From positions 2,289,847 to 2,353,846 of the forward strand of contig NZ_CM001484.1 in assembly GCF_000243395.2 (NCBI RefSeq): 64,000 nt of DNA. The letters are read 5' to 3'. Source of the stretch: Saccharomonospora glauca K62 (GTDB lineage Bacteria; Actinomycetota; Actinomycetes; Mycobacteriales; Pseudonocardiaceae). Below the pieces are notes generated by a model. That model ran no database searches. It saw only the letters and a program-made list of their open reading frames with translations, and was not told where the DNA came from. How positions within the stretch are numbered: position 1 is the first letter of the stretch; each line of letters begins with the position of its first letter. The position numbers and the translations under genes are program-made. Positions 1 to 18,619 of the stretch are shown one piece after another.

Positions 1-3000
1 GTGAGCCCCTCGGCCCGCATGGCCTCCCGCAAGCGCTCGGCCACCGCGCCGTCCAACACGTACTGGCGCGCCTGGCCGCGCGGACCCCGCACGGTACCCG
101 CCTTGTCGGGCAACCGTAGCGACGGGAGCGCGCTCGTGCGGCGATGCCAGAAGTCGCGCTGTTCTGGGTCCTTGATCGCCTTGCGTTCCAGGGCGACGAA
201 CTCACGGTAGGTGCCGCTGTCCTCCTCACCGAGCAGCGAGGGCTCGCCACGGGTGAGCCGCCGGTAGTCGGTGAGCCAGTGTCCGAACAGCGTGGAGATG
301 CTCCAGCCGTCGAGGATCGAGTGGTGGAAGCTCACGACGAGGTGGAACCGGTCCTCGGCACGCCGGAAGACCTGGATGCGGGCCAGTGGCGCGCGGGTCC
401 AGTCGAAGCCTCGGGTCTTCTCCTCCTCCAGCCACGCGTCGATCCGCTCCTGCTGCTCCGCGTCGGGAAGCTCACGCAGGTCACGGAAGTCGAGGGGCAG
501 CTCGGCCTCGGCCCACACCAGTTGCATCGGCTCGCTGTAGGTCGCGAGATCGAACGAGGTGCGCAGCGCCGGATGGCGCCGTACCACGGCGGCCAGCGCG
601 GTGCGCAAGGCGTCCTCGTCGTAGGGCGCGCGCACGTGGTAGCCGATCAGATCGTGGTAGACGGGCGTGTTCGGGTCGACCGTGCTGTGGTAGAGCGTTC
701 CGGCCTGCGCCGCGGCCATCGGATACGCGTCCACCAGTCCCTCGGGCAGCAGCTTCCTGTCCTCGGTGGACACCAACGAGAAAGGTGCGGTGGGTTCCTC
801 CGGGGGCCGACCGCCCCGTTCGAGCGCCGCCGCCAACTCCGCGACCGTCTGGCACCGGAAGAGATCCTGCAGTTCGAGGGAGAAGCCCTTCTCCCGCAGC
901 AGGCCGAGCACCCGCAGGCTGCGCAACGAGTCCCCGCCGAGAGCGAAGAAGTTGTCGTCGGGGTCGACCTCACCGGTTCCGAGAACCTTCGCCCAGATCC
1001 CGCTCACGATCTCCTCGGCCGGAGTTCGGGCCGCCCGGCCTCCGGTGCGCGGGGTCTCCGACACCGAGGGCAGTGCCTTGCGGTCGAACTTGCCGTTCGG
1101 CGTCCGGGGCAGCGCGGGCAGGCAGCGGAGATACGCGGGCACCATGTACTCCGGCAGGATCGCGCGCATGGCCGCGCGGATCGCCTCGGCTCCGGGGTCC
1201 TCGCCCGACGGCACGTAGAAGCCGGCGAGCTGGAGGTCACCTCGTTCCCGCGTGGTGGTGACCGCCGCTTCGAGCACACCGGGATGGCTCCGCATCGCGG
1301 ACTCCACCTCGCCCAGCTCGATGCGGAAGCCCCGCACCTTCACCTGGTGGTCGGCGCGGCCGAGAAATTCCAGTGTGCCGTCGGGGCGCCAGCGGGCGAG
1401 GTCGCGGGTGCGGAACAGCCGGGTTCCGGGGGCACCGTCGGGGTCCGGCACGAATCGTTCCGCGGTCAGGGCGGGACGGTCGTGGTATCCGCGCGCCAGT
1501 CCCGGTCCGGCCACGCACAACTCGCCGGGGACGCCCACCGGTACGAGCTGGAGCCGCTCGTCTCGGATCGAGACACGGACTCCGGGAACGGGGCCTCCGA
1601 TGGTGGCGGTGCCGTCGACCGGCCCTCCCGGAAGGTCGGCGAACGTGGAGTAGACGCTGGCCTCCGTAAGTCCGTAGAGGTTCAGCACTCGCCGGACACC
1701 GGGAAGCTGGTGCAGGTCGGTGACCACGGCGTTGGGCAGTGCCTCCCCGGCCATGCTCACGACCTGCGCCCCCGCCGGGATGCCGCCCGTCCGGGCCAGC
1801 TCCGCCGCGGCCGAGGGCACCGTGTTGACGATGCGCACCGTGTCGGCCACCGACTTGGGCAGGTGCGGCAGTTGCAGGACGTTCTCGACCAGGACGACAC
1901 AGCCGCCGTAGCACAGGGGCAGGAAGATCTCCCAGACCGAGGAGTCGAAGCAGACCGACGACGACGCCAGCATGCCCGCCAACTGGTCGTCGTCGAACAA
2001 CCGGCGACCCCAGTCCAGCAGCACTCGCAGTCCACCGTGCTCGGTGGTGGCTCCCTTGGGACGCCCGGTGGAGCCGGAGGTGTAGAGCAGGTAGGCCGCC
2101 GAACGCGCGGTCAGTTTCCGGGGCGGGGCGGTCGGTTCCCGCCGGGTGAGGAGTTCCGTGGTCTCGGGTGCGTCGATTCGCAGCACGGTGGCGTCGGTGC
2201 CGCTCAGCGCGGGAGCGGTCGCCTCCGTGGTCACCACCACCGAAGCACCCGAGTCGCTCAGCATGAAGGTGAGGCGCTCCGCCGGATAAGCGGGATCGAG
2301 GGGCAGATAGGCCGCGCCCGCCTTCATCGCCGCGAGCAGGGTGACGATCAGGCGTTCGTTCCTGGGTAGACACACCGCGACGGGAGCGTCGGGGCCCGCG
2401 CCGAGGTCCCGCAGCCGCCACGCGAGGCGGTTCGCGTCCTCGTCGAGTTCCCGGTAGGACAGCGAGCCCGACGCCGTGCGCACCGCGGTTCGCTCCGGGT
2501 GCTCGGCGGCTCGGCGCTCGACGAGGTCGATCAGCGTTTCGGCGGCCGGTTCCGGGTCGGGCTCGCCCGACCACGCGGTGAGCAGGGCCCGCTCGGCGTC
2601 GTCCAGCAGCGGCAGGGCGCCGACCGTGGTGTTCGGCTCGGTGACCGCCGCCGTCAGCAGCGAGGTGAAGTGACCGGCCATCCGCTCGACGGTCTCGCGG
2701 TCGAACAGATCCGCGTTGTACTCGATCAGGCCGTGGAACGCGCCGTGCTCGGCATCGCCGGGGAAGACGATGAAGAGCAGGTCGAACTTCGCGGTGCCGT
2801 TGTCGAGCGCGCGCACGTCGACGTCCAGCCCGGTGGCCCCGATCTCCCCGACCGGCGCGGATTCGAGCACCAACATCACCTGGAACAACGGGTTGCTGCT
2901 CAGGTCACGTCCGGGGGCGATCTCGTCCACGAGCCGTTCGAACGGCATGTCCTGGTGCTGGTAGGCGCCCAGGCAGGTCTCGCGGACCCGGTCGAGCAGC

Positions 3001-6000
3001 TCGCGGAAGGTCAAGTCGCCCCGGACCTCGGTGCGCAGCACGAGGGTGTTGGCGAACAACCCGATGACGCGTTCCAGTTCCGTGCGCGTGCGGTTGGCGT
3101 TGAACGTCCCGACGAGCAGGTCCTCCTCGCCGGTGTAGCGGTGGAGCAGGGCCTTGAGCGCGGCGAGCAGCACCATGAACGGGGCGGCCTCGGCTTCCTG
3201 CGCGAGCGCGGTCAGCCGAGCCGAGGTCTCCGCCGACAGGTCGAACTCCTGCCACCCGCCGCGCCTGCTCTGCACCGCCGGGCGCGGCCGGTCGGTGGGT
3301 AGTTGCAGCAACGGTGGCGCGCCCGCCAACCGCTTCTTCCAGTACTCGACCTGGTCGTCGAGGTAGTGGCCGTCGTGCAGGGCGGCCTGCCAGCGCGCGT
3401 AGTCCCGGTACTGCACGGTGAGTTCCGGCAGATCGGGCGTCCGGCCCGCCGCGAACGCCTCGTACAACCGGAAGATCTCGTGGAACAGCAGCCCGCTCGA
3501 CCAGTAGTCGGACACGATGTGATGGGTCGACACCAACAGTACGTGCCGTCGCGGGGCCAACCGGATCAGCCGAGTGCGCAGCAGATGTCCGACTCGCAGG
3601 TCGAACGGCTCGCGACAGAATTCGGCGGCGATCCGCTCAACTTCCGCGATCGCGTCCCGCTCGGGCAAGGACGTCAGGTCCCGTATCGGCAGGGGCTGTT
3701 CCCGAGGCGGTTCCACCCGCTGTACCGGCCGACCGTCGACCAGGGGCATGGCCGTGCGGAGGGTCTCGTGTCGCCGGACCAGCTCGTCGAGCGCCGCCCG
3801 CAACGCCGTGACGTCGAGCTCCCCCGTGAGCCACACGTCGTTGGCCATGACGTAGAACGGGCTCGCCGGGTCGAGTTCCTGGAGGAACCACAGGTTCTCC
3901 TGCATCGACGACGCCGGGGCGAGTTCGTCGGCCCAGTCGTGCGACCGCAGCACGGGAAGCGCCCGCTCCTCGCGGCTCGCGCGGACCTCGTCGATGACCG
4001 CGGCGATGCCCGCCACGGTCGGGTCGCCGAGCAGCTCCCGCACGCTGAGCGTGACCCCGAAGTGATCGCTGAGTTGCGCGGCCAGCTGCGTGGCGAGCAG
4101 CGAGTGCCCACCCAGGGCGAAGAAGTCCTTGCGCAGCCCCACGTCCGCGATGCCGAGGAGATTGCCCATCACCGCGGCGACCCGTGCCTCGGTCTCCGTT
4201 CGTTCCGGCGTCGGCTCGACCGGAGCCTCGTCGCCGTCCCCGGTGTCCACCCAGGTCGCGGTGGTCGCAGGCACCGTCAGGGCCGTGCTCCGCGTAGTGG
4301 CCAACAGGCCGGCCCAGTCCTCGGGGCGTCGCTGCCCTTCCCATTCCAGGGTGACGCAGTCGAGATCGGCAGAGACGACCCCGAGCGCGAGACACCGGGC
4401 GACCATGCGGTCCAGCTCGGTCCCGACGGGCAACACCAGCACCACGTGGTCGGCACCCAGCCGGTCGGCGGTCGCGGCGATGGCACGGCCGCGCTGCTCC
4501 GCCTCCGTCAATCTCCTCGCGACCTCCGTCCAGTCCGAGGCCGCGGAACCGTCACACGGTGCCGGTTCGACGAGCACGCCGTCGGCCCGATCCAGCTCGT
4601 CGGCGGCGCGCACGACGCAGCCGGTGAGCGTGTCGGCGAGCGCGCCGCGGTCGCCGACGAAGGCATAGGTGTCTCCCGCGCGCAGGCGGATCGGGTCCGC
4701 GGTCTCCGGGCTCCGGGTGCTCGCCACCCAGCGCCGGGTGCCCCGGAACGCCACGACCGCCGGTCCCTCGGGCGCCGAGACCTCCGCGGCCAGGGCGCGC
4801 AGCACCGCGTCCCGGCGGCGCCCGGAGGCGGGCACGTCACCGACGTCGACCACCCGGCATCCGCCACCGTCGGCGAAGGCGGCCAGCGCCACGGCGGTGA
4901 GATCGGGGCGGTCGGCACTCTCAACCGCCAGTCCCGCGCGCGTCACCACAGTGATGCCGGTGATCAGCCCGTCGGCGAGCAGGTGCGCGTATCGCCAGGG
5001 CGCCGGCGGAGTGTCCGGATTGGACGACGCCACCAGGCGGAGCGGCCCATGCTCGCGCGCGACGGCGTCGACGTCCTCGGGCGCGCATGTCGCGGTGGCG
5101 GTGCCGAAGAGCTCCCGCAGCGGGTCGTCCTTCTCGGCGACCAGCAGGTAGGGAGCGGGTTCGCTCGCCGTCGTGGGCGTGGACTCCCAGGTCCGGGCCC
5201 GTGGTCCTTCGGTCGTCTCGCTCGGTTCTGGCGCGCTGATCCAGTATCGGCGGCGTTCGAACGGGTACGGGGGCAGCTCGACGCGTCCGCGCCGTTCGTC
5301 GCCCCGGATTCTCGACCAGTCCACGGCGACGCCTCGTGCCCAGAGAGCCCCCGTCGCCTCGGCCAGCTGTGCGCCTTCCCGCTCGGGGTCGGCATCGGGG
5401 AGCGTGGCCACCACCGCCTCGGGTCCGACCTGGGCCGCGGCGAGTCCGCTCACCGTGCGGCGGGGTCCCGTCTCCAGGAGCAGGCCTCCCACGTCGTCGC
5501 GCAGCGTGCGGACGCCCTCGGCGAAGCGGACAGTGCCGCGCAGGTGGCGGCACCAGTGTTCGGGGTCGGTCGCCTGGGCGGCGTCCACCCACGTTCCGGT
5601 CACGTTGGTGACGTAGGGCGTCCGCGGCGCGTGCAGGGTCACGCTTTCGACGGCGGCGCGGAACTCGTCGAGCACCGGCTCCACGAGCGGTGAGTGGAAG
5701 GCGTGGGCCGTGCGCAGCAGCCGGGTTTGGACGCCGTCCTCGGCGAGTCGACTCCGCAGCGCTTCGATGGCTTCCGCGTCGCCGGACGCCACTGAAGCGG
5801 CCGGTCCGTTGTCCGCCGCCAAGGCCACGTTCTCGGGCAGCAGTGGCGCCAGTTCCTCCGCGGGCAATCGGGTCGCGAGCATCGCCCCGGAGGGGGCACT
5901 CTGCACCAACCTGCCCCGGACGACCACCAGCCGGAGCGCGTCGGCCAGGCTGAACACCCCGGCGAGGTGGGCGGCGACAAACTCGCCGATGCTGTGCCCG

Positions 6001-7856
6001 AGCAACGCGACGGGGCGCACTCCGCGGTCCTCCCACAGCCGCGCCAGCGCGTACTGGATCGCGAACAGCGCGGGCTGCGTGTACTCGGTTCGGTCCAGGC
6101 GGGCCGCCGCCTCGTCCCCGGTCGTGAACAACAGCTCCCGCAAAGGCACGTCGAGGTGAAGCCGTAGCAGCTCCTCGCACTCCCGGATCGCCTCGCGAAA
6201 CGCCGGCTCCTCGTCGTAGAGACCGCGCCCCATGCCGGGGTACTGGCTCGCCTGGCCGGGGAACAACAGCGTCACCGGCATCTCGCCGGACTCGAACTCC
6301 GCTGTCGTCCCGGCGTCGGGGTCACGCAGGCGCGCGATCGCCTCGTCCAGATCGCGCGCTTGGAAGGCCCGTCGGTGCGACAGCGACGGCCGTCCGACCT
6401 GGAGGGTGTGGGCGACGTCGGCGATGTTCAGCTCGGCGTGCGAGGCCAGGTGGCCGGCGAGCCGTTCGCTCGCCCGCGCCAACGCCGAGGCCGAGCGTGC
6501 CGACAGCACGATCGTCTCGGCCTCACGCCGCCTCGGACGGGAGACCGGGGCGGGCGGCTGCTCCAGGATCAAGTGGGCGTTAGTACCGCCGATGCCGAAG
6601 GAACTGACTCCCGCGCGGCGCGGTCCCCGATCGGGGAACGCGTGGAGCTCGGTGCTGACGTAGAACGGGCTGTTCGCGAAGTCGATCTCCGGGTTCGGTT
6701 CGGTGAAGTGCGGGCTCGGTGGGATGAGGTTCGACTCCACCGCGAGCGTCGCTTTGATGACGCCCGCCACACCCGCCGCCGAGTCGAGATGGCCGACGTT
6801 GCCCTTGAGCGACCCCAACGCGCAGTAGCCGATGCCGGTCGCACCCGCCGCGCGATAGGCCTTGGTCAACGCGGCGACCTCGATGGGGTCGCCGAGCGGA
6901 GTCGCCGTCCCGTGCGCCTCGACCATGCCGACGGTGTCGGGATGCACCTCGGCGGCGGCCAGCGCGGCACGGATCACCTCGGACTGTCCCGTGACACTGG
7001 GGGCGGTGTAGCCGATCTTCGCCGCGCCGTCGTTGTTGATCGCCGACCCGCGGATGACGGCGCGAATCGGATCACCGTCGTCGAGCGCGTCCTGCAACCG
7101 GCGCAGGACGACGACCCCCGCGCCGTTGCCGGGGATCGTTCCCGCCGCGCGCGCGTCGAACGGGCGGCAGCGCCCGTCGGGGGAGGCGATGCCGTTCTCC
7201 CCGCCGCGGTAGCCGATGCGTTGGGGAACGCGGATGGTACTGCCGCCGGCGAGCACCAGGTCGCTCTCGCCAGCCAGCAACGACTGGCATGCCAGGTGGA
7301 TCGCCACGAGCGAGCTGGAACACGCGGTCTGCACGGTCACCGCCGGACCGCGCAGACCGAGCTTGTACGCGGTGCGGCTGGCGATGAAGTCCTTGTCGTT
7401 GGAGAGCAACTTCTGCAGATAGCCGACGACGTCGTCCAGACCGCGGTGCGGGTACACGTTGCGCAGGCCGTACTCGTTGACACTCACCGACGCGAAGACG
7501 CCGATGGCGCCCTTCTCCCGCTCCGCGTCGTGTCCGGCCGACTGTAACGCCTCCACGGCGCATTCGAGGAACAGCCGTTGCTGGGGGTCGAGCAACGCCG
7601 CCTCTCGCGGTGTGTACCCGAAGTAGTCCGCGTCGAAGAGGTCCTCACCGTCGACCACCGCCGCCCTGCGCACGTAGTCCCGTGCCGAGAACTCGGTCTC
7701 GGGCACTCCCGAGGCGCGTAGCTCCTCCGCAGTGAGCTCCCGGATGCCCTCCTCGCCCGCGCACAGCAGGGACCAGAACCGCGTGACGTCCGGCGCCTGC
7801 GGAAACCTGCCGCTGAGACCGATCACCGCGATCTCCAGCCCGGTCGCTTGCTCCAT
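1..7856 (-). CDS. Hybrid polyketide synthase / non-ribosomal peptide synthetase (partial, 3' end beyond window)
   Basis: A modular megasynthase; about 2,618 residues are inside the window and the frame stays open to the left edge. Domains in order: KS (TACSSS, Cys about 179; EAHGTA; GNVGHL), AT (GHSIGE, Ser about 622; HAFH, the malonyl-type signature), a linker with KR structural remnants but no usable NADPH motif, carrier (LGGHSL, about 1252), condensation (HHIVSDYWS, about 1446), adenylation (YTSGSTGRPKG; NLYGLTE with L for the usual P), carrier (LGGDSL, about 2308), then a second condensation domain (HHSILDGWS, about 2509) that continues out of view. My reading of the A-domain pocket is D-S-W-T-S-A-L-V-Y-K, which I cannot assign. 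The start is ATG 7856, 17 nt after the aminotransferase stop. It probably condenses an acyl or aminoacyl starter with malonate and then adds at least one amino acid. Confidence 0.93.
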   Translation of the reverse strand, partial: MEQATGLEIAVIGLSGRFPQAPDVTRFWSLLCAGEEGIRELTAEELRASGVPETEFSARDYVRRAAVVDGEDLFDADYFGYTPREAALLDPQQRLFLECAVEALQSAGHDAEREKGAIGVFASVSVNEYGLRNVYPHRGLDDVVGYLQKLLSNDKDFIASRTAYKLGLRGPAVTVQTACSSSLVAIHLACQSLLAGESDLVLAGGSTIRVPQRIGYRGGENGIASPDGRCRPFDARAAGTIPGNGAGVVVLRRLQDALDDGDPIRAVIRGSAINNDGAAKIGYTAPSVTGQSEVIRAALAAAEVHPDTVGMVEAHGTATPLGDPIEVAALTKAYRAAGATGIGYCALGSLKGNVGHLDSAAGVAGVIKATLAVESNLIPPSPHFTEPNPEIDFANSPFYVSTELHAFPDRGPRRAGVSSFGIGGTNAHLILEQPPAPVSRPRRREAETIVLSARSASALARASERLAGHLASHAELNIADVAHTLQVGRPSLSHRRAFQARDLDEAIARLRDPDAGTTAEFESGEMPVTLLFPGQASQYPGMGRGLYDEEPAFREAIRECEELLRLHLDVPLRELLFTTGDEAAARLDRTEYTQPALFAIQYALARLWEDRGVRPVALLGHSIGEFVAAHLAGVFSLADALRLVVVRGRLVQSAPSGAMLATRLPAEELAPLLPENVALAADNGPAASVASGDAEAIEALRSRLAEDGVQTRLLRTAHAFHSPLVEPVLDEFRAAVESVTLHAPRTPYVTNVTGTWVDAAQATDPEHWCRHLRGTVRFAEGVRTLRDDVGGLLLETGPRRTVSGLAAAQVGPEAVVATLPDADPEREGAQLAEATGALWARGVAVDWSRIRGDERRGRVELPPYPFERRRYWISAPEPSETTEGPRARTWESTPTTASEPAPYLLVAEKDDPLRELFGTATATCAPEDVDAVAREHGPLRLVASSNPDTPPAPWRYAHLLADGLITGITVVTRAGLAVESADRPDLTAVALAAFADGGGCRVVDVGDVPASGRRRDAVLRALAAEVSAPEGPAVVAFRGTRRWVASTRSPETADPIRLRAGDTYAFVGDRGALADTLTGCVVRAADELDRADGVLVEPAPCDGSAASDWTEVARRLTEAEQRGRAIAATADRLGADHVVLVLPVGTELDRMVARCLALGVVSADLDCVTLEWEGQRRPEDWAGLLATTRSTALTVPATTATWVDTGDGDEAPVEPTPERTETEARVAAVMGNLLGIADVGLRKDFFALGGHSLLATQLAAQLSDHFGVTLSVRELLGDPTVAGIAAVIDEVRASREERALPVLRSHDWADELAPASSMQENLWFLQELDPASPFYVMANDVWLTGELDVTALRAALDELVRRHETLRTAMPLVDGRPVQRVEPPREQPLPIRDLTSLPERDAIAEVERIAAEFCREPFDLRVGHLLRTRLIRLAPRRHVLLVSTHHIVSDYWSSGLLFHEIFRLYEAFAAGRTPDLPELTVQYRDYARWQAALHDGHYLDDQVEYWKKRLAGAPPLLQLPTDRPRPAVQSRRGGWQEFDLSAETSARLTALAQEAEAAPFMVLLAALKALLHRYTGEEDLLVGTFNANRTRTELERVIGLFANTLVLRTEVRGDLTFRELLDRVRETCLGAYQHQDMPFERLVDEIAPGRDLSSNPLFQVMLVLESAPVGEIGATGLDVDVRALDNGTAKFDLLFIVFPGDAEHGAFHGLIEYNADLFDRETVERMAGHFTSLLTAAVTEPNTTVGALPLLDDAERALLTAWSGEPDPEPAAETLIDLVERRAAEHPERTAVRTASGSLSYRELDEDANRLAWRLRDLGAGPDAPVAVCLPRNERLIVTLLAAMKAGAAYLPLDPAYPAERLTFMLSDSGASVVVTTEATAPALSGTDATVLRIDAPETTELLTRREPTAPPRKLTARSAAYLLYTSGSTGRPKGATTEHGGLRVLLDWGRRLFDDDQLAGMLASSSVCFDSSVWEIFLPLCYGGCVVLVENVLQLPHLPKSVADTVRIVNTVPSAAAELARTGGIPAGAQVVSMAGEALPNAVVTDLHQLPGVRRVLNLYGLTEASVYSTFADLPGGPVDGTATIGGPVPGVRVSIRDERLQLVPVGVPGELCVAGPGLARGYHDRPALTAERFVPDPDGAPGTRLFRTRDLARWRPDGTLEFLGRADHQVKVRGFRIELGEVESAMRSHPGVLEAAVTTTRERGDLQLAGFYVPSGEDPGAEAIRAAMRAILPEYMVPAYLRCLPALPRTPNGKFDRKALPSVSETPRTGGRAARTPAEEIVSGIWAKVLGTGEVDPDDNFFALGGDSLRSLRVLGLLREKGFSLELQDLFRCQTVAELAAALERGGRPPEEPTAPFSLVSTEDRKLLPEGLVDAYPMAAAQAGTLYHSTVDPNTPVYHDLIGYHVRAPYDEDALRTALAAVVRRHPALRTSFDLATYSEPMQLVWAEAELPLDFRDLRELPDAEQQERIDAWLEEEKTRGFDWTRAPLARIQVFRRAEDRFHLVVSFHHSILDGWSISTLFGHWLTDYRRLTRGEPSLLGEEDSGTYREFVALERKAIKDPEQRDFWHRRTSALPSLRLPDKAGTVRGPRGQARQYVLDGAVAERLREAMRAEGL

Positions 7857-7873
7857 ACAGGTACACCCCTGTC

Positions 7874-9115: not shown

Positions 9116-9350
9116 GACAGCAACCTCCGGGTAAGTAATACCGAAATGATCGGGAGAGTCCCGCTCGACAATTCGTCGAGTTGATTCACGTGGCAAAACC
9201 TGGCGCGAGAGGAAGCCGCCGAAGAACGGGCGACTCAATATCCGGATGCCCCCAGGTTACCGCACGGAAGAGCTGTCGTGAACTCGCGGAAAACGACGAT
9301 CGTAGACAGCATTTCCATCACCGATTCGCGCATGTCCGTCCAGCTCGGGT

Positions 9351-9827: not shown

Positions 9828-9992
9828 GGAATCGACAATGGCACTGCTGGGGGTGATTAGGCAATCGCGTTCGACTCCACTCGTTGCCGCCCGACAGTGA
9901 CGATTGTCTTGCGTGGCCAATGACAGCGGCCGTGGATAGAGTCAGCTTTCGCATTCCAGCCAAAGCAGCTTTTTCGAGTCCGGGGGTGACTC

Positions 9993-11237
9993 ATGCCCGC
10001 GTTACCGGTGGTCGCGGTCGTCTACGACCTCGGTTCGGCCGGTCCCACCGACGTCCTCCGGGCCGCGCGAGGACTGTGCATACCGCTCTTCGTCTACGAC
10101 CGGGCCTCCGGGGTCCCGGAAGGAGTGCTCGACCTGCTGGCCGGCCTCGACGACACACTCGACGTCACCGGGTGGTCCACTCAACGCGTCGCCGAGGAAC
10201 TGCGTCGCCGTGACGTCGCAGGCATTGTCACCTTCGCCGAGTACCAGATCCGGCGCACGGCCGAGCTGGCCGATCTGCTCGCCCTGCCTTACCAGGACAC
10301 GGCCACCGCGCGCAGGCTCACCGACAAGGCCCGACAGCGGGAAGCGCTGGCCGCCGCGCGAGTCGACACCACTCGCACGGCCGTTCTCGACACGGTCGCC
10401 GACGTGGCGACGGCACTGTCCACAGTGGGTCTTCCCGCCGTGCTCAAGCCCGCCGTCGGGGGGTCCAGCCGCAACTGCTTCCTCGTCACGACGGCGGACC
10501 AGTGCGCGAGGACGGCCGCCCGGTTGCTCGACGGTGTCGAGGACCAGTTGGTCCTCGAGGAGTATCTGGTCGGCGCGCCGCAGGAGAGCTGGGGTGACTA
10601 CGTGTCGGTGGAGTGTCTGACGGTGGAGGGCGGCCACGTCCCGATCGCCGTCACCGGAAAACTGCCGCTGTCGGCCACGGGATTCAAAGAGACCGGCATG
10701 TTCGTCCCCGCGGAGCTCGACCCCGAGCTGAGTGCCGAGATCGAGCGGCTCGCCGTGGCCGCGCTGGGGGCGCTCGGCCTGCGGACCGGACTCACGCACA
10801 CCGAGATCAAGCTGACGCCGGAGGGACCCCGTCTGATCGAGGTCAACGGGCGGCTCGGCGGACACGTCGCCGACCTGGTCCGCCGTGCGGGCGGACCCGA
10901 CCTCGTGCGGCTGGCGCTGCGCGCGGCGCTGGGGACGGTGACGCCGCCGCGGCGGGCCGAGTGGGACCGCGTGTCCTTCCAGTACTTCGTCCTCCCGCCC
11001 GACGGGGCCACGACGGTGCACGACGTCCACGGCGTCGCGGAGGTTCGTGCGCTCCCCGGAGTGACCAAGGTCGAACTTGCCGACCTGCCACGAACGCTTC
11101 CCGCCGTAGCCGACGGCGTGAGCAGCCGCCTCGGCACCGTCTACGGCGCCGTGGCGAACCACACCCAACTGCGTTTCCTCAGCCGGCTCGTGGGCGAGCG
11201 CCTGCGCCCGGCCGTCGATCCGGAGGTGACCCGTTGA
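9993..11237 (+). CDS. ATP-grasp ligase
   Basis: 414 residues. ATP-grasp features: VLKPAVGGSS with the nucleotide-binding lysine near residue 150, LVLEEYLVG, and a C-terminal metal/phosphate motif (HTEIKL...LIEVNGRLGG). The overall layout is like carnosine-synthase or L-amino-acid ligase types, which activate a carboxylate as acyl-phosphate and couple it to an amine. ATG 9993 gives a normal N-terminus (MPALPVVAVVYDLG). The end overlaps the next gene's TTG start by 4 nt (TTGA), so the two are translationally coupled. In context it is likely to make an amide or dipeptide bond for the natural product; the substrate is unknown. Confidence 0.88.
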   Translation: MPALPVVAVVYDLGSAGPTDVLRAARGLCIPLFVYDRASGVPEGVLDLLAGLDDTLDVTGWSTQRVAEELRRRDVAGIVTFAEYQIRRTAELADLLALPYQDTATARRLTDKARQREALAAARVDTTRTAVLDTVADVATALSTVGLPAVLKPAVGGSSRNCFLVTTADQCARTAARLLDGVEDQLVLEEYLVGAPQESWGDYVSVECLTVEGGHVPIAVTGKLPLSATGFKETGMFVPAELDPELSAEIERLAVAALGALGLRTGLTHTEIKLTPEGPRLIEVNGRLGGHVADLVRRAGGPDLVRLALRAALGTVTPPRRAEWDRVSFQYFVLPPDGATTVHDVHGVAEVRALPGVTKVELADLPRTLPAVADGVSSRLGTVYGAVANHTQLRFLSRLVGERLRPAVDPEVTR

Positions 11238-12931
11238 CCCCCATAACCGTGCCCACACTCGTCGACCGGCATGCCGAGATCACACCCGACGCCGTGGCGC
11301 TGTGGCACCCCGACGGCACCCGGCTCACGTACGCGCGGCTGCGTGACCGCACCGACGACCTGGCGCGCGTCCTGGCGGCACGCGGGGTTCGCCGGGAGAC
11401 TCCGGTCGGGATCGTGGTGCCCCGAGGGGTCGACGCCGTGGTGCTGATGCTCGCGGTGCTCAAGTGCGGGGGTTACTGCGTGCCGCTGGACCCGGAACAT
11501 CCGGAGAGCCACCGTCGGCGGGCGATTGCCGACTCGGGGGCTTCGCTCGTGCTCACCGGGATTCCGGATCGCTCCGTGGTGGAGGAGCGCGACACGCTCC
11601 CGGAGCCTCCCCTGCCCGGCAACGCCGCCTACCTGGTCTACACCTCCGGGTCGACCGGGGTGCCCAAGGGTGTCGTCGCCACCCACGACTCCGTCGCCAA
11701 CCTCGTCACCGCACCCGACCTCGGCATCGAACCCGGCGACCGGGTGCTGCACTACGCCCCGCTGGCCTTCGACGCCTCGGTGTTCGAACTCTGGGGTGCT
11801 CTCGCGCGCGGCGCCACAGTCGCCGTGGCGCCGCCGGGGACGCTCGGAACCCGTGACCTGCTCGACTTCATGGAGAGCGCGTCGGTCACCGTCGCGTGGC
11901 TCACCGCGGGGCTGTTCCACGAGCTGGTGACCGTCGAGAAGCGACTGCCGACCTCGCTTCGGATGCTGTTCGCCGGAGGGGACACCGTCCGCGCCGACGT
12001 CGTCCGGCGGGCCGTCGCCCTCTCCCCCGGCCTGCGTCTGGTGAACGGTTACGGACCGACGGAGTGCACCACGTTCACCACGCTCCAGCACGGGCTGGAG
12101 GAGCTGGTCACCGAGGACGAGCACACCGTCCCGATCGGTCGCCCGCTGCCGAGGGTGGCGACGCACGTGCTGGACGAGCGACTCGACCCGGTCCCGGACG
12201 GGGTGATCGGACAGCTCTACGTCAGCGGGGCGAACCTCGCTCGGGGCTATCACGGCCGTCCCGGCGTTACGGCCGAGCGGTTCGTGCCCTTGCCGGGTGG
12301 GGCGCGTATGTACCGCACCGGAGACCTGGTCCGCCGGCGCCCGGACGGTGTGCTGGAGTTCCACGGCCGCGTCGATCGGCAGGTGAAGATTCGCGGTTTC
12401 CGTGTGGAGCCCGGTGAACTCGAAGCGCGCCTCGGCGAGCATCCCGAGATCCGGGCCGCCGCCGCGGTCGGGGCACCGGACGGCGACGGCGGTACCCGGC
12501 TCGTGGCGTATCTCGTGGCGGAGAACGCGGAGGCGGGCCTCGACCTCGACGGCGTCCGTTCGTGGCTCGCCGAGCGTGTCCCGCCCTATCTCGTGCCCTC
12601 GGCCTTCCTGCAGTTGCCCGAACTCCCGCTCACGGCCAACGGCAAGGTCGACACCGCCGCGCTTCCGGCGCCCGACTCGGCTGGCGTGTCACGGGGACAG
12701 CGGGCGCCCCGCACCCCGGCCGAGAAGCTCGTCGCCGAGATCTGGTGCGAGGTGCTGGGCGTCGAGGAGGTCGGCATGGACGACAACTTCTTCGAGTTGG
12801 GCGGCGACTCCCTCAGGATGAACCGGGTCGCCGCGGCGTTGCGTAAGGCCACCGGACGGCCCGTCGCGTTGGCCGACCTCCTGCTCGCGGAGACGGCGGG
12901 AGAGCTGGCCCGTTCGTTGGGCGACGACTGA
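11234..12931 (+). CDS. Stand-alone NRPS adenylation-carrier (A-PCP) protein
   Basis: 565 residues: adenylation domain with VYTSGSTGVPKG (about 134), NGYGPTE, YRTGD and a C-terminal ANGKVD lysine, followed by a carrier domain with LGGDSL (Ser about 525). No condensation or thioesterase domain. Pocket residues read by analogy to GrsA give DAFWFGGTFK, one position from published valine codes of the DAFW-I/L-GGTFK type, so valine is the best guess. The start is TTG 11234, set by GGAGG 7 nt upstream and by the TTGA overlap with the ATP-grasp gene. It probably loads an aminoacyl starter in trans onto the megasynthase. The stop is only 4 nt from the end of the convergent thioesterase gene. Confidence 0.92.
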   Translation: MTPITVPTLVDRHAEITPDAVALWHPDGTRLTYARLRDRTDDLARVLAARGVRRETPVGIVVPRGVDAVVLMLAVLKCGGYCVPLDPEHPESHRRRAIADSGASLVLTGIPDRSVVEERDTLPEPPLPGNAAYLVYTSGSTGVPKGVVATHDSVANLVTAPDLGIEPGDRVLHYAPLAFDASVFELWGALARGATVAVAPPGTLGTRDLLDFMESASVTVAWLTAGLFHELVTVEKRLPTSLRMLFAGGDTVRADVVRRAVALSPGLRLVNGYGPTECTTFTTLQHGLEELVTEDEHTVPIGRPLPRVATHVLDERLDPVPDGVIGQLYVSGANLARGYHGRPGVTAERFVPLPGGARMYRTGDLVRRRPDGVLEFHGRVDRQVKIRGFRVEPGELEARLGEHPEIRAAAAVGAPDGDGGTRLVAYLVAENAEAGLDLDGVRSWLAERVPPYLVPSAFLQLPELPLTANGKVDTAALPAPDSAGVSRGQRAPRTPAEKLVAEIWCEVLGVEEVGMDDNFFELGGDSLRMNRVAAALRKATGRPVALADLLLAETAGELARSLGDD

Positions 12932-12935
12932 TCCG

Positions 12936-13700
12936 TCAACGCAGGGCGTTGTTCCGTGCCTCCACCAACGCCCTGCGCACTTCCGCCACCACGTCGACCA
13001 ATGAGTCCTGCAGATAGAAGTGCCCGCCGGGGAAGATTCGGTGGCGGAATCGTCCGGTGGTGTGGCGTTCCCAGGCGATCAGGTCCTCCGGTGGCACGTT
13101 GTCGTCCGAGTCTCCGCCCAGCGCGACGAGGTCGTGGGCCACCGGGTCCCCGCCCGGCCACACGTACTTCTCCACCACCGCCAGATCGGCGCGGACGGTG
13201 GGCAGCACGAGCTTGAGGTATTCGGGGTTCTCCAACAGCTCCGGCGACAGTCCACCCAGGTCACGCAGCGCCTCCACGAGCTCGGCTTCGGGCAGGTCGT
13301 GCCGATGCGGGCCGAGGCGCTCCAGGTGCGGCGCGTGGTGCCCGGACACGACGAGCACGTCCGGGCGACGGCTTTCGTCGAGATAGCGGCTGAGTTCGAA
13401 CGCCACCAACGCGCCCATGCTGTGCCCGAACAAGGCGTAGCGGCCCTCCAGGAGCGGGCCGAGGTTGTCGGCCAACGCGGGCACGAGCGTGTCCATGCGC
13501 TCGTGGGGTGGCTCGAACATGCGGTTCTCTCTGCCGGGTAGCTGCACGAGCTTGACCTCGACGTCACTGTCGAAGTAACTCGGCCACTCCCGGTAGGCCG
13601 TGGCACCGCCGCCGGCGTGGGGCAGGCAGATCAGCCGCAGCGAGGCGTCCGGCCGGGGCTGGGGTGTGAGGACCCAGGGGTTGCGTGTCGTGTCGGCCAT
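12936..13700 (-). CDS. Type II thioesterase
   Basis: 254 residues, alpha/beta-hydrolase fold. LPHAGGGATAYREW near the N-terminus, nucleophile elbow ALFGHSMGA (Ser about 95) and catalytic GGHFYL near the C-terminus are all classic for the discrete editing thioesterases of PKS/NRPS clusters, which clear misprimed or stalled acyl groups from carrier domains. The start is ATG 13700 with a GGGAG-type site upstream; an open frame continues further upstream but lacks the family sequence. It follows the discrete acyltransferase by 29 nt in the same direction. Confidence 0.93.
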   Translation of the reverse strand: MADTTRNPWVLTPQPRPDASLRLICLPHAGGGATAYREWPSYFDSDVEVKLVQLPGRENRMFEPPHERMDTLVPALADNLGPLLEGRYALFGHSMGALVAFELSRYLDESRRPDVLVVSGHHAPHLERLGPHRHDLPEAELVEALRDLGGLSPELLENPEYLKLVLPTVRADLAVVEKYVWPGGDPVAHDLVALGGDSDDNVPPEDLIAWERHTTGRFRHRIFPGGHFYLQDSLVDVVAEVRRALVEARNNALR

Positions 13701-13729
13701 GTGTCGTGGTCTCCCGTCCGTTCTCGTGT

Positions 13730-15028
13730 TCAGTCGGTCGCCGAGGCCCGGTCGGCGAATACCGTTTCCCAGTCGACCGGCACGCCCGCCAGCCACAGGT
13801 GCGCGGCGGCGGCGAGCAGGCTGTCCGTGTCGGACTCCCAGTACGGGGAGGGGGCGAGCGAGGCCACCATCGGGGTGGGCTCGCCCCCGGCCTTCGCCAG
13901 GAACTTCTTGGCCATGTTCAGGGCGGTCTGTTCCGGCCCGATCTCCAAGACGGCTCCGGGGTGGCGACGCCACAACGTACGCAGGCCCTCGTTGAACAGC
14001 ACGGGCGAGCACATATGTTGCCCCCAGTGCTCGGGATCGGTTGCCTGCCGGGGGGTGAGCTGGGTGCCGGTCAAGCAGGAGACGTAGCGCAGCCGGGGAG
14101 GTTTCCTCGTCATGGCGGTGGCCAGCTCGACCAGGCGCGGACGCACCGGTTCGAGCGTCGGCGTGTGGAAGGCGTGCGTGGTGTCGAGCAGTCCGCACCG
14201 GATGCCTTCCGCGAGCAGCCGCTCCCGCAACTGCTCGACAGCGACCGTGTCGCCCGCCGCGATGCTCACCTCGGGGCCGTTCGTGGCGGCCAGCCAGAGT
14301 CCCTCGCGCAGGCGTGGCTCCAGTTCCTCCCTCGGTAGCGACACCGCGAGCATCCGGCCCTGCGGCAGCTCGTCGACCATGAGGGCACGTCGCATGATCA
14401 GACGGAGGGCGTCCTCGGGGGCGAGAACGCCCGCGACGCTCGCCGCGACGTATTCGCCGAGGCTGTGCGACAGCATCGTGTTCGGGGTGACTCCCCACGC
14501 CCGCCAGACCTCGAACAGGGAGTACTCCAGCACGAACAGCGCCGGGTGCCCGACGGTGTTGCGTCGAAGCATTTCCTCGTACTCCGTCGACCGCGCGTCG
14601 TCCGTCGGGGCAAACATGGCCGGTCGGGGGTCCACGTCGAACTCGGCGACCAGCAGCTCGCTGAGCCGGTCGGCCGTGGCCCGGAACCTGGGGAGCTTGG
14701 TGTGGAGGTCGGAGCCTCGTAGCACCGACAGCTTGCCGAACCCGGCGAACAGGAAGGCCACCGACGGCGCCGCCGGGGTGGCTCCTTCCGGTACCGACCT
14801 GGTCAGCATCCAGCGGGTGTCCCGATCGCGTACGGTGGCCAGCGCGTGGTCGGTGTCGTAGGCGAGAACGCAGCGACGATACCGGTGGGTGGGGTCCGGT
14901 CGAACCGAGGCGGCCACCGCAGTGAGTCCGGCCGGTTCGTTTTTCAACCTCTCAGCGAGATCGGTGGTGCGGTCCTCCAGGTCTCGGGCGCTCGCTCCGG
15001 TCAACGGAATAGGATGCAGCAGTCTCAT
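13730..15028 (-). CDS. Discrete acyltransferase (AT) of PKS type
   Basis: 432 residues, covering one AT domain with its flanking linker. The usual FPGQG start is replaced by FLFAGFGKLS, and the nucleophile motif reads LSHSLGEYVAAS, so the first glycine of GHSxG is serine. HAFH (malonyl-type) and the C-terminal LEIGPEQ block are present. The megasynthase has its own AT, so this protein may serve another carrier, act as an acyl hydrolase, or be specialised for a different acyl-CoA. It lies between the StrR-like regulator and the type II thioesterase in one leftward operon. Confidence 0.87.
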   Translation of the reverse strand: MRLLHPIPLTGASARDLEDRTTDLAERLKNEPAGLTAVAASVRPDPTHRYRRCVLAYDTDHALATVRDRDTRWMLTRSVPEGATPAAPSVAFLFAGFGKLSVLRGSDLHTKLPRFRATADRLSELLVAEFDVDPRPAMFAPTDDARSTEYEEMLRRNTVGHPALFVLEYSLFEVWRAWGVTPNTMLSHSLGEYVAASVAGVLAPEDALRLIMRRALMVDELPQGRMLAVSLPREELEPRLREGLWLAATNGPEVSIAAGDTVAVEQLRERLLAEGIRCGLLDTTHAFHTPTLEPVRPRLVELATAMTRKPPRLRYVSCLTGTQLTPRQATDPEHWGQHMCSPVLFNEGLRTLWRRHPGAVLEIGPEQTALNMAKKFLAKAGGEPTPMVASLAPSPYWESDTDSLLAAAAHLWLAGVPVDWETVFADRASATD

Positions 15029-15056
15029 ACCGTGCTCTCCCCGATCGATCCCCTGG

Positions 15057-16130
15057 TCAGCTTCCCGCGATTTCGAGGTTCGGGTGCTGAGTGATCTCGC
15101 CTTCCTCCAGCAAAGTGGCGAGGCTGGTCCATGCCGCTCCGTAGAGACGGGCGAAGTTCGCCACCAGCACGGTGCAGTGACTCGGCACCGAGGCCAGGAG
15201 TTGGGGCCATTCGGCCATCCCGAGCACGTGCCGGTCGAGCCACCGCAGCAAGTTCCGCCCCGTCTCGGTGAACCGCAGGGCGGGGTCCTTCTTCATCTGG
15301 TCGAGCGCGTGTTTGAGGTCGTGTGCCAAGGTCTGCCACGACCGTCTTCCGGAGGAGCCGTCGTCTCGCCGCAGCGGAACCGCGGCGCGGGCACGGCGAG
15401 AGTGGCCACGACGCGGTTCGGGCACTGGGTCGTCGCCGGCGCGCATCCGCTTCCGCACATCCTGCACGGTCGCGGGGGACACCCCCGCTTGCCTCGCGAC
15501 CGCACGCAACGACGCCGTGGGGTTCTCGATCAGCAGCTTGCTGGCCAGACGTCTACCGGCGGCGCTGTTCAGCGGACGTCTCCGCCCGTCGCGGCCGATC
15601 CGGATGTCCGACTGCGCATTTTGATCAGTTGAACGCCGGCGGAGGGAGCGGATCGTGCCCGCGGCCAGGCCCACCGCGGCGGCGATGCGCCGATCGGACC
15701 AGTGCGCGTGTGTCTTGAGAATCCGGATGGCGGCCTCGGTGCGGTCCTGCCGGGAGAGGGGAAGCCCGTGTGCGGTGTTCATCCACACCGACAACACGAA
15801 GGCGTCCTCTTCGCTCCCTTGGTAGCATCTGGCCCGAATGTGCCGATCGCCGCGAAGTACCGCGGCACGCAACCGATGAACCCCATCGATGACCCGCATC
15901 GACGGCTCGTGTACCACAATGGGCGGTAATTCTTCACCCCATTCTGCAAGATTTTCGATATGGCTTTCGTCCTCACCTGATCGGCGCGGCGACTCCGTCG
16001 TGGACAACGCGCTGATCTCCAGTGTGACGATCGGGCACCCTTCCAGTGATCGCCGTGCCCAATCTGCCATGCCGGTGGGGTCAGCTACGGCTCTCTCCTC
16101 AGATCTCGGCAGGTCACGCGCTTGCACCAT
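15057..16130 (-). CDS. StrR/NovG-like pathway-specific activator with ParB-type N-terminal domain
   Basis: About 357 residues. The N-terminal half has the ParB/sulfiredoxin-like segment (ELPPIVVHEPSMRVIDGVHR, then AFVLSVWMNTAHGLPL), followed by helix-turn-helix segments (HWSDRRIAAAVGLAAGTI; TASLRAVARQAGVSPATV). This arrangement is typical of StrR, NovG and glycopeptide-cluster activators, which bind palindromic promoters in their own cluster. The start is uncertain: ATG 16130 is chosen; the frame reaches 16157 and ATG 16070 is also possible. It heads the leftward AT/thioesterase operon and is divergent from the CoA transferase gene across a region with a nested inverted repeat. Confidence 0.85.
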   Translation of the reverse strand: MVQARDLPRSEERAVADPTGMADWARRSLEGCPIVTLEISALSTTESPRRSGEDESHIENLAEWGEELPPIVVHEPSMRVIDGVHRLRAAVLRGDRHIRARCYQGSEEDAFVLSVWMNTAHGLPLSRQDRTEAAIRILKTHAHWSDRRIAAAVGLAAGTIRSLRRRSTDQNAQSDIRIGRDGRRRPLNSAAGRRLASKLLIENPTASLRAVARQAGVSPATVQDVRKRMRAGDDPVPEPRRGHSRRARAAVPLRRDDGSSGRRSWQTLAHDLKHALDQMKKDPALRFTETGRNLLRWLDRHVLGMAEWPQLLASVPSHCTVLVANFARLYGAAWTSLATLLEEGEITQHPNLEIAGS

Positions 16131-16278
16131 CAATCCCCACAATCGTCGACGCGTCACACCAAGGGCATGTGGAACAAGATTGATTAATCGGGAAGGGTGG
16201 CCGAATCGGACGTAATAATGAGCCGAGGAAGCTACTCATCACGTCGTCTAACGGTCCACGTTGCCCGCCCTCAAAATC

Positions 16279-16318: not shown

Positions 16319-16541
16319 CGACTGTAGCAACGAAAACTTTCTCGTCGCAACAGGATTGATCACCGCACCGACCGTGACGAACCCGGGTCGCACTGGACCG
16401 TTCGAGTGATTTCCCGGAGAGTCCGTTCCGTTTGCCCATTTTCCTGACTGTCTGCTGTGGACCGAAATGGCTCCGCCCCTTCCGTTGACACGGGTTCTGC
16501 ACTAGAACCGTGGTGATCAACTTTCCGGGAGGGGATGCGAG

Positions 16542-16595
16542 ATGCCAAGTCATCAACACGACGGCTCGGAAGGCAGATCGTGCCGGGTCCGCTGA
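16542..16595 (+). CDS. 17-codon upstream ORF (possible leader peptide)
   Basis: ATG 16542 lies 7 nt after a strong GGGAGGGG ribosome-binding site (16528-16534) and opens a 17-codon frame ([17 protein letters not shown]) that ends at TGA 16593-16595, past the GTG start of the CoA transferase gene at 16580. The overlap would let ribosomes terminate near the downstream start. It could be a coupling or attenuating leader, or a chance frame. No homology can be judged at this length. Confidence 0.35.
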
Positions 16596-17674
16596 ACGAC
16601 CTGCGGGTCGTCGAACTCGCCGGCCTCGGTCCGGCCCCCCACGCCGCGATGCTGCTGGCCGACCTCGGCGCCGACGTGGTCAGGATCGAACGACCCGGCG
16701 GGAACGGGCCGGATCTCCTGGGTGGGCTGCCCGACCACCTCCTGCGCGGCAGACGCACGATCGTCACGGACCTGAAGACCCCCGAGGGACGTGCGCGTGT
16801 GCTCGAACTGGTCGAACGCGCGGACGTGCTGATTGAAGGCTTCCGACCGGGCGTGGCCGAACGCCTCGGTGTCGGCCCCGAGGACTGCCACCGCCGCAAC
16901 GCGCGCCTCGTCTACGGACGAGTCACCGGATGGGGGCGCTCCGGCCCGCTCTCCGACCGGGCCGGTCACGACATCAACTACCTCTCGCTGACCGGAGCCT
17001 TGCACGCCGTCGGGACCCGTGACCGGCCCGTCGCTCCCCTGAACCTGATCGGGGACTTCGGGGGTGGCTCGCTCTTCCTGCTGGCCGGAATCCTGGCCGC
17101 GTTGTGGGAACGAGAACGTTCCGGCCTCGGCCAGGTGGTCGACGCGACGATGACCGACGGCGTCGGTCTGCTGATGCACATGATCTGGACCCTCCACGGG
17201 AGTGGAGTGTGGAGCGACGAACGGGCGAGCAACCTGCTCGACGGCGGCGCGCCGTTCTACGACACCTACGCGTGCTCCGACGGCCGGTGGGTCGCCGTCG
17301 GAGCCATCGAGCCGCAGTTCTACCGCGCCCTGCTCGACGGCCTGGACCTCGCCGGAGAGGAACTTCCCGACCAGTACGACCGTGCGGGCTGGCCGGTGCT
17401 GCGAGCCCGGATCGCCGGGGTGTTCGCCACGAAGCCACGGGACCATTGGGCCGAGGTCTTCACCGGCACCGACGCGTGTGTCACACCGGTGCTCTCCCTG
17501 GAGGAGGTGGCCGACCACCCCCACAACCGCGCGCGGCAGCGCTTCTTCACCCGCGACGGTGTCCGGCAGCCCAAGCCTTCGCCGGAGTTCTCCCGCACCT
17601 CCCCGGACCTGCCGTCCCCGCCTCCTTCACGACCGACGGAGTACGGTGCGGTGCTTCGGGACTGGGAAGCCTGA
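16580..17674 (+). CDS. CaiB/BaiF family III CoA-transferase / alpha-methylacyl-CoA racemase-like protein
   Basis: 364 residues. The N-terminus ([20 protein letters not shown]) and [13 protein letters not shown] are diagnostic of the alpha-methylacyl-CoA racemase and CaiB group; [16 protein letters not shown] and [11 protein letters not shown] are also typical. The start GTG 16580 has GGAAGG 6 nt upstream; an in-frame ATG at 16535 touches its own Shine-Dalgarno and is less likely. The next gene follows after 21 nt. It may epimerise a 2-methylacyl-CoA or move CoA between acids; the link to the PKS-NRPS is by position only. Confidence 0.87.
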
Positions 17675-17695
17675 ACAGTCAGCGAAGGAGCCCTG

Positions 17696-18619
17696 ATGAC
17701 CACGAACTTCTCCGCGGCCGAGGTGCGCGCGGCGGTGCCGATGTCCCACGCGATCGAGGCCGTGCGCGAGGCCTTCGCCGATCTCGCCGCGGGACGTTTC
17801 AGCCAGCCGGACCGGCTGGTCTTCGGCACCGCCGACAACGCGGTACTCGTGATGTCGGCCCACCACACCCCCACTGGTGCGGCGGTGGTGAAGACGGCCG
17901 GAGTGGTGCTCGACCGCGATCCCGCCATCGTCGCGACCTTGGTCTGGACCGATGCCCTCGGACAGCTCACGGCGGACGCGGCGGCGGTGACCACCTTGCG
18001 CACCGGCGCCGCCACCGGCGTGGCCACCGACCTGCTCGCCGACCCCGAGGCCCGGAAACTCGCTCTGCTCGGCGCCGGAGAGCAGGCCGCGGACCAGGTG
18101 CGCGCGGTGGCGGCCGTTCGCGAGATCACCGAACTGACCGTCTACAACCGGGGCGCCGAACGAGCGAAACGACTGGTCGCCGCGTTGCGGGAGGAGTTCC
18201 CGGAGATGCGCATCGACGTGGCGGACACCGCGGCCGACGCCGTCGGTGACGCCGACGTGGTGTGCTGCGTCACCTCCGCGTCCGACCCACTCTTCGAGCT
18301 GTCGGACCTTCCCGAGCGGGTTCACGTCAACGCCATCGGCTCGTTCCGGCCAACGATGCGCGAGCTGCCGGACGACCTCGTGAAGACGGCATCCGTCGTG
18401 GTGGTCGACCAGCTCGGCGCGGCCAGGGAAGAGGCGGGCGAGATCCACCACGCCCTGAAGCACGGGCTGCGCGCGGAAAGCGACATCGAGGAGCTCGGCA
18501 CCGCCCTGACCACCCGCCCGGACCGAGTGGGGCGCACCGTCTTCAAGTCGGTGGGGGTGGCCGCCCAGGACTGGGCCGTCGCACGGTTGCTCGCGCGGTA
18601 CGCGCGTACCGAGTCCTGA
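17696..18619 (+). CDS. Ornithine cyclodeaminase / mu-crystallin family protein
   Basis: 307 residues with a Rossmann fold: LALLGAGEQAADQVRAVA for NAD(P) and the family-wide VKTAGVV and VNAIGSFRPTMREL segments. Members include ornithine cyclodeaminase, alanine dehydrogenase, ketimine reductase and SbnB-type enzymes for amino-acid precursors. The start ATG 17696 has AAGGAG upstream. It follows the CaiB-like gene by 21 nt and is probably co-transcribed. It could supply or reduce an unusual amino acid, but the substrate is not readable. Confidence 0.88.
   Translation: MTTNFSAAEVRAAVPMSHAIEAVREAFADLAAGRFSQPDRLVFGTADNAVLVMSAHHTPTGAAVVKTAGVVLDRDPAIVATLVWTDALGQLTADAAAVTTLRTGAATGVATDLLADPEARKLALLGAGEQAADQVRAVAAVREITELTVYNRGAERAKRLVAALREEFPEMRIDVADTAADAVGDADVVCCVTSASDPLFELSDLPERVHVNAIGSFRPTMRELPDDLVKTASVVVVDQLGAAREEAGEIHHALKHGLRAESDIEELGTALTTRPDRVGRTVFKSVGVAAQDWAVARLLARYARTES

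Follow-up and report, generated by a model that had tools for sequence, protein, structure and literature searches.

A hybrid NRPS-PKS gene cluster of Saccharomonospora glauca K62 with parts apparently taken from an amine-degrading pathway and a housekeeping peptidase

Masked aminoacyl starter loading has precedents in butirosin and vicenistatin, and a loading carrier protein on the polyketide synthase (PKS) is a feature of VinK-type starter transfer. In the biosynthesis of zwittermicin A, aminomalonyl-ACP (ACP, acyl carrier protein) is formed with an acyl-CoA dehydrogenase, a 3-hydroxyacyl dehydrogenase, an ACP and the activating enzyme ZmaJ (PMC6395733 and PMC4207774, both cited from excerpts); both zwittermicin acyltransferases (ATs) for ACP-bound extenders carry a GYSxG motif (PMC4207774, Table 2, excerpt), and the hydrophobic form of the RXR motif found in ZmaA-AT and ZmaF was proposed to serve carrier recognition (PMC4207774, excerpt). 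It has also been reported that PepN removes an aminoacyl mask in the maturation of blasticidin S (PMC4664946, excerpt). Here we describe a hybrid cluster of nonribosomal peptide synthetase (NRPS) and PKS genes from the soil bacterium Saccharomonospora glauca K62, whose genome has 4.56 Mb in two contigs; its expected product is a mixed peptide-polyketide. The cluster overlaps the window, i.e., the whole stretch of 64,000 nucleotides that was analysed (contig NZ_CM001484.1, positions 2,289,847 to 2,353,846; G000:C1:2289847-2353846). Hybrid clusters are already known; this particular gene set matched none of the papers found.

We propose, with moderate confidence, that the 62.7 kb cluster encodes one assembly line, mainly of the cis-AT type, in which a discrete AT would act in trans on the synthase PKS3, a four-gene set would supply aminomalonyl-ACP, and a borrowed amine pathway would provide a cyclic amino acid. 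The cluster spans 62,678 bases (G000:C1:2245788-2308465, window positions -44058 to 18619); the window covers its right-hand third, and the remainder reaches 44 kb beyond the left edge, on which side 54.8 kb were read and the genes called with Pfam and NCBIfam. Its borders are fixed by a gene block that is conserved in two Amycolatopsis genomes. A. dendrobii DR6-1 (G503) has 30 of the 30 cluster genes, with 62-87% protein identity and the gene order kept save for three relocated genes, those for the regulator, the CoA-transferase and the ornithine cyclodeaminase/mu-crystallin (OCD) family protein, which are located at the opposite cluster end. The second genome, G560, has 28 of the 30, and its regulator adjoins the AT, as in S. 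glauca; the CoA-transferase and OCD genes fall outside the stretch examined there, and the contig ends inside PepN. Beyond the borders, none of the eight genes queried to the left of PepN and none of the 15 queried to the right of window position 18619 has an orthologue in the A. dendrobii stretch, the latter giving two weak matches of 28-32%. Chance is excluded because family E-values go down to 1e-199 and the block is conserved in three genomes. The cluster is a single conserved hybrid NRPS-PKS unit with defined borders; the description of one such cluster with free-standing partners, given in an initial annotation of the window, therefore stands, and the possibility raised there that the left part would assign the genes to separate clusters was looked at and did not refute it, since left and right parts form one block.

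The genes that carry this account are the following (psi marks a degenerate domain, KR is ketoreductase, and positions are those of the window unless stated otherwise):

1..7856, minus strand: PKS1, N-terminal 2,618 of 3,886 amino acids (Pfam; KS-AT-psiKR-ACP-C-A-PCP-C...)
9993-11237, plus strand: ATP-grasp ligase (Pfam; nearest solved relatives BacD, L-amino acid ligases)
11234-12931, plus strand: free-standing A-PCP protein (Pfam; TTG start overlapping the ATP-grasp stop)
13730-15028, minus strand: discrete AT of excised-domain form (Pfam, motif comparison)
Left of PKS1, minus strand, in order: PKS2, PKS3, formyltransferase, MbtH, NRPS4, MFS transporter, KAS III, GGACT-family protein
Further left, plus strand: FAH, LigB and aldehyde dehydrogenase (ALDH) genes
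Further left, minus strand: glutamine synthetase-like (GS-like) gene, P450, pyridoxal phosphate (PLP) decarboxylase, second P450, small protein
Far left, plus strand: ACP, 3-hydroxyacyl-CoA dehydrogenase, aminoacyl-tRNA synthetase-like gene, acyl-CoA dehydrogenase, aminopeptidase N (PepN)
G000:C1:2245788-2248367 (L009:10789-13368), plus strand: cluster PepN, left border of the cluster

Left of PKS1 the cluster thus holds three more synthase proteins, MbtH, a formyltransferase, a transporter and 15 other genes. Over the whole line there are six A domains and three PKS modules, with a single TE at the end, and C/A/PCP and KS/AT/ACP modules occur within shared proteins, as in modular hybrids. The end of PKS1, for which an extension to the left had been advised, was found at window position -3804, 3.8 kb past the left edge (L012:42-11702, minus strand); the protein of 3,886 residues has the order KS-AT-psiKR-ACP-C-A-PCP-C-C-A-PCP. 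No KR model matched it even at E 10 (Pfam) and no Rossmann glycine motif was seen by eye in the AT-to-ACP interval, so that the earlier wording "degenerate KR" is fair; with this interval read as a KR remnant, the unit should stay a ketone. PKS2 is KS-AT-KR-ACP, PKS3 is C-A-PCP-KS-AT remnant-KR-ACP-TE, and NRPS4, which starts with an N-terminal C domain, is C-A-PCP-C-A-PCP. Residues ~2370-3240 of PKS1 form two tandem condensation-type domains preceding the last A domain, and the protein has three Condensation stretches versus two A domains; recruitment of a P450 is one possibility for the extra domain. Elsewhere in the same genome, G000:C1:2092114-2103074 and G000:C1:2436481-2441321 show 65-86% DNA similarity to the 3' part of PKS1 and are probably two more NRPS/PKS loci.

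The six A-domain codes, in which the final K is assumed, are identical across the three genomes though the proteins differ by 23-27%. The lone A-PCP has DAFWFGGTFK, which we take to read valine, in line with the valine-type A-PCP first noted; NRPS4 has DVWHVSLVDK and DFQFLGFAAK, PKS1 has DSWNSALVYK and DVWHVSLIDK, and PKS3 has DALFIGVVVK. The DVWH-type codes presumably read serine, and DFQFLGFAAK, by our reading, resembles pipecolate. PKS3 has the sole integrated TE and PKS1, PKS2 and PKS3 are consecutive, which leaves NRPS4 as the one multimodular protein that could stand before PKS1; from this, we infer the protein order NRPS4-PKS1-PKS2-PKS3. Valine on the lone A-PCP would be passed to NRPS4, whose N-terminal C domain would be a more natural acceptor for it than PKS1, and whose two modules would add serine and the residue with the pipecolate-like code; the chain would then move to PKS1, with serine at its last A domain, to PKS2 and to PKS3 for release. 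The formyltransferase probably formylates the N-terminus.

Among the PKS modules, only that of PKS3 is AT-dead; the ATs of PKS1 and PKS2 have their active-site motifs. The AT region of PKS3 retains the KS-AT linker and both AT ends. Its GHSxG position reads ASGAGE and its middle part, with HAFH, has been lost in all three genomes; Pfam gave no AT match at E 10. The discrete AT keeps the catalytic Ser in SHSLG, HAFH and the Arg in RRALM in all three genomes; it begins with a KS-AT-linker-like stretch and ends in a post-AT tail. Among solved structures, ZmaA-AT and CurL come closest, almost level (E 2.1e-49 and 2.2e-49), and its best match outside itself is the PKS1 AT of the same genome (41%; best other genome 40%). 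At E 1e-60 it was matched in 13 of 120 relatives, own included, and no discrete relatives were seen, these matches lying in open frames of 1,079-3,903 residues. Because the malonyl-type features are kept and the AT core of PKS3 is lost, each in three of three genomes, the job of the discrete AT is more likely extender supply, and the best reading of the motifs is that it would supply the PKS3 module, charging its ACP in trans. The line is not a classical trans-AT PKS, in which modules are without AT, since PKS1 and PKS2 have in-module ATs.

The putative extender set consists of an acyl-CoA dehydrogenase, a 3-hydroxyacyl-CoA dehydrogenase, an ACP and an amino acid:[ACP] ligase resembling seryl-tRNA synthetase (SerRS), encoded together; they are the gene kinds of the zwittermicin set, with another activating enzyme. 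For the ligase, the relatives are amino acid--[acyl-carrier-protein] ligase 1 (Bll0957, E 4.8e-33) and type-2 SerRS (E 4.4e-22). The AT of PKS2 has GYSVG in the three genomes; the discrete AT has SHSLG. From the gene content, we infer that the set would make aminomalonyl-ACP from serine and deliver it to the line as an extender.

Of 119 other relatives, 11 have LigB relatives, at 12 loci in total, and every one of these loci was examined. ALDH, LigB and FAH occur together in 10 of the 12 loci, accompanied by the GS-like gene in eight, the P450 designated P450b in six and the decarboxylase in two (matches covering <60% of the query dropped). No modular NRPS/PKS was present at the 12 loci, the synthase matches being limited to one locus with one acyl-CoA-ligase-like frame of ~25% identity. 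They carry, in addition, a gene that we take to be acetoacetate-decarboxylase-like (10/12), a PuuC-like ALDH (at least 60% identity; 8/12), an HpaR-like regulator (7/12), a PuuD-like gamma-glutamyl hydrolase (6/12) and an amino acid permease (5/12); each count includes the locus of query origin, and the names PuuC, PuuD and HpaR are best NCBIfam scores below cut-off. These free-standing loci are probably operons that degrade an aromatic amine as its gamma-glutamyl amide; no description of loci L124-L133 was found in the literature. None of the five accessory gene types is present in the three clusters, where the only ALDH match of the PuuC-like query is the HpaE-like gene (38-40%), and which carry instead a gamma-glutamyl cyclotransferase gene (GGACT). 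Puu-type amine catabolism was accordingly rejected for the clusters, which lack the PuuC-like ALDH and the PuuD-like hydrolase. Since the amine-consuming genes are absent and GGACT is present, the cluster would keep the nitrogen, and its amine set probably makes an unusual amino acid. In the proposed route, the tyrosine-decarboxylase-like enzyme, the GS-like gamma-glutamyl ligase, a P450, the ring-cleaving dioxygenase LigB, the HpaE-like ALDH and the HpaG-like FAH would lead to a masked amino-keto acid, the gamma-glutamyl amine being hydroxylated, ring-opened, oxidised and decarboxylated in this order; GGACT would then unmask the product, which could cyclise to an amino acid that feeds the line, with reduction perhaps by the OCD-family enzyme. 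The full scheme, in which the front half of aromatic-amine degradation is hijacked so that a tyramine-type amine yields a new pipecolate- or azepane-like amino acid for the second A domain of NRPS4, on the same line as SerRS-like-charged aminomalonate and a trans AT that makes up for the dead AT of one module, is offered tentatively and is doubtful as a whole.

The last gene, PepN, has a mosaic history. The cluster copy shares 90% identity with another copy, located at C1:1304056-1306623 (L081), and two copies at E 1e-200 were found in 2 of the 46 genomes searched, own included. In a whole-gene tree it joins the S. glauca housekeeping copy (100/100); nevertheless, identity to this copy is complete over residues 1-584 and 691-750 and falls to 65% over 585-690 and 59% over 751-857. 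At the DNA level, by ungapped comparison, the windows match fully up to codon 561 and again at 694-726, with values of 0.43-0.72 in the diverged parts, which lie mostly in the C-terminal ERAP1_C domain and in which the cluster copies of the three genomes group as a single clade (100/99). Of the 29 other PepN loci, 25 entered the trees; a third A. dendrobii paralogue and the N-terminal piece from G560 were left out. Within the diverged parts, 81 sites are conserved in 28 housekeeping copies; S. glauca departs from them at 14 and both Amycolatopsis cluster copies at 13, with 10 shared against 2.2 expected (P 1.3e-7) and seven changed to the same residue in all three (a whole-gene version of this comparison overstates the contrast). 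The mosaic and the single origin of the diverged segments led us to reject independent recruitment in each genus, as the whole-gene tree would have it. It seems that an ancestral cluster PepN was partly overwritten by the housekeeping gene, in an apparent recent gene conversion that spared two segments in the C-terminal part. The enzyme may trim a masking residue, or it may be an insensitive copy of the target. The KAS III was also considered as a duplicated target; its paralogues in its own genome are only 36-40% identical.

The remaining genes of the right-hand part are:

7874-9238, minus strand: PLP enzyme of the class V aminotransferase fold (Pfam; SufS/EgtE-like scores below cut-off)
9408-9839, minus strand: N-terminal half of an IS5-type transposase, ~145 amino acids, flanked by the class V and ATP-grasp genes and at the same place in three clusters
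12936-13700, minus strand: type II thioesterase (Pfam)
15057-16157, minus strand: helix-turn-helix (HTH) regulator (Pfam, HTH models only)
16535-17674, plus strand: CoA-transferase family III (Pfam; part of the cluster in A. dendrobii)
17696-18619, plus strand: OCD-family protein (Pfam; right cluster border, part of the cluster in A. dendrobii)

The megasynthase, aminotransferase, ATP-grasp, lone A-PCP, discrete AT, type II thioesterase and regulator listed by the initial annotation are all present; the regulator, labelled StrR-like there, matched HTH models alone in Pfam. The true start of the class V enzyme is probably about 9142; the transposase fragment, which we assign to IS5 from its sequence, is perhaps a domesticated DNA-binding protein, and the OCD-family protein is a possible ketimine reductase. 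A 121-residue protein at L009:17041-17406 (minus strand), which matched no Pfam or NCBIfam model, is 76-82% identical in the two Amycolatopsis clusters.

A patchy distribution is usual for biosynthetic clusters. With the ATP-grasp protein as query, a contig scan of 84,980 species, which reaches close relatives only and possibly does not include the genome of the window, returned A. dendrobii DR6-1 as the single relative (70%). The protein was matched in 33 of 120 genomes, own included, and the cluster is absent from the five best other neighbourhoods (G040, G033, G111, G070 and G102) of the 32 other matching genomes. The formyltransferase occurs at 67-70% in 2 of 80 Amycolatopsis genomes (A. 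dendrobii and G560) and was matched in 6 of 394 genomes of the class, own included, the best other at 39%. Among 12 Saccharomonospora genomes, own included, an ATP-grasp match of >34% identity and a LigB match were each obtained in the own genome only. The initial annotation could not match the set to a known product, and none was found in the literature; the genus was surveyed with antiSMASH and MIBiG (PMC7990883, excerpt), and the cluster is likely listed there by antiSMASH.

Several observations weigh against parts of the proposed account. At the RXR position, the S. glauca ATs read RCG (discrete AT), ASR (PKS2) and QTR (PKS1), i.e., the hydrophobic residues described for zwittermicin (PMC4207774, excerpt) are absent from all three, and it may be that none of them uses aminomalonyl-ACP. 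The models that fit the acyl-CoA dehydrogenase best, with scores under the cut-off, are those of prolyl-carrier dehydrogenases, and the set may therefore make another aminoacyl-ACP. The identity of the amine is a guess, because the decarboxylase is best against the tyrosine decarboxylase MfnA with 124 bits for a cut-off of 299 and is present in 2 of the 12 loci. The GGACT assignment comes from one Pfam model, with no solved relative below E 0.2, and the residues named for the A-domain codes are presumptive. The dehydrogenases, ligase and ACP could hence make some other carrier-bound starter, e.g., a dehydro- or pyrrole-type aminoacyl unit, while the discrete AT uses malonyl-CoA; this is less probable than our account and still a serious alternative, favoured by the prolyl-carrier affinity and by the Arg with which the RXR position of the discrete AT begins, as in CoA-using ATs (PMC4207774, Table 3, excerpt). 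Nevertheless, the 3-hydroxyacyl dehydrogenase fits serine-to-aminomalonate chemistry as in the zwittermicin set (same excerpts), and the ligase is related to type-2 SerRS.

That the decarboxylase-GS-LigB-ALDH-FAH set is no more than a catabolic operon that by chance adjoins the synthase genes, with no role in the product, is unlikely. Its relatives do stand alone, and look catabolic, in 10 of 12 loci; however, in three of three genomes the set lies inside the conserved block, between the ACP/P450 genes and GGACT, and the PuuC-like, PuuD-like, permease and regulator genes are gone. We regard as more improbable still an aminoacyl starter loading, in which Val-PCP would receive a protecting residue (gamma-Glu or another) from the ATP-grasp enzyme, the discrete AT would move the valine to the PKS, and GGACT or PepN would unmask it. 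The ATP-grasp gene overlaps that of the A-PCP, the two are conserved as a pair, and both unmasking candidates are in the cluster; nevertheless, the ATP-grasp enzyme is nearest to BacD-type ligases, and loading by the discrete AT was set aside, as the malonyl-type motifs are kept and it is PKS3, with its lost AT core, that needs an AT. For the same motifs, and because PKS1 starts with its KS and has no loading carrier, the direct loading of the PKS by the lone A-PCP that was first suggested finds no support, at least if the discrete AT is taken as the carrier.

If the proposed account is true, a catabolic operon became a supplier of precursors when its amine-consuming steps were lost and an unmasking enzyme was gained, and ten other loci hold free-standing relatives for comparison. 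It would also mean that an AT of excised-domain form sustains a cis-AT line, that there is possibly a SerRS-related route to aminomalonyl-ACP, and that gene conversion is copying a housekeeping peptidase gene into a gene of the cluster.

Compared with the described systems, the cluster shows partial likenesses. The loading carrier protein of VinK-type aminoacyl starter transfer has no counterpart on PKS1, which begins with a KS, and the malonyl-type HAFH and Arg of the discrete AT in three of three genomes would tell against an aminoacyl-adapted site. Of butirosin-type gamma-glutamyl masking, in which gamma-Glu is attached by an ATP-grasp enzyme and taken off by a cyclotransferase, both gene types are present. 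LgrA of linear gramicidin is the best-scoring solved relative of the lone A-PCP and a formyltransferase is present here too; it is, however, a separate gene, nearest to ArnA and ~28 kb away. With blasticidin S (PMC4664946, excerpt) the removal of a mask by PepN may be shared, and here PepN lies inside the cluster with a diverged C-terminal domain. Zwittermicin A (PMC4207774 and PMC6395733, excerpts) has in common with this cluster the ACP, both dehydrogenases, an amino-acid activating enzyme, a discrete AT and a GYSxG AT; the differences are the SerRS-like ligase in place of ZmaJ, the resemblance of the discrete AT to an excised modular domain, and the absence of the hydrophobic RXR motif. If our reading is right, the cluster shares with the 4-alkyl-L-proline pathway of lincomycin, hormaomycin and the pyrrolobenzodiazepines (PMC4780272, excerpt) the opening of a tyrosine-derived ring to give an amino acid for an NRPS. 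It would differ in its LigB-type dioxygenase, its decarboxylated, gamma-glutamylated substrate and its HpaE/HpaG-like steps. The nearest relatives of the amine part remain HpaE/HpaD/HpaG homoprotocatechuate degradation and the Puu-type route as represented by loci L124-L133, with which it shares the ALDH-LigB-FAH trio (61-74%), the GS-like gene (52-55%), P450b (56-71%) and the decarboxylase (61-62%); in contrast to these loci, the cluster is without the PuuC-like, PuuD-like, permease, acetoacetate-decarboxylase-like and regulator genes, and has GGACT and the NRPS/PKS genes.

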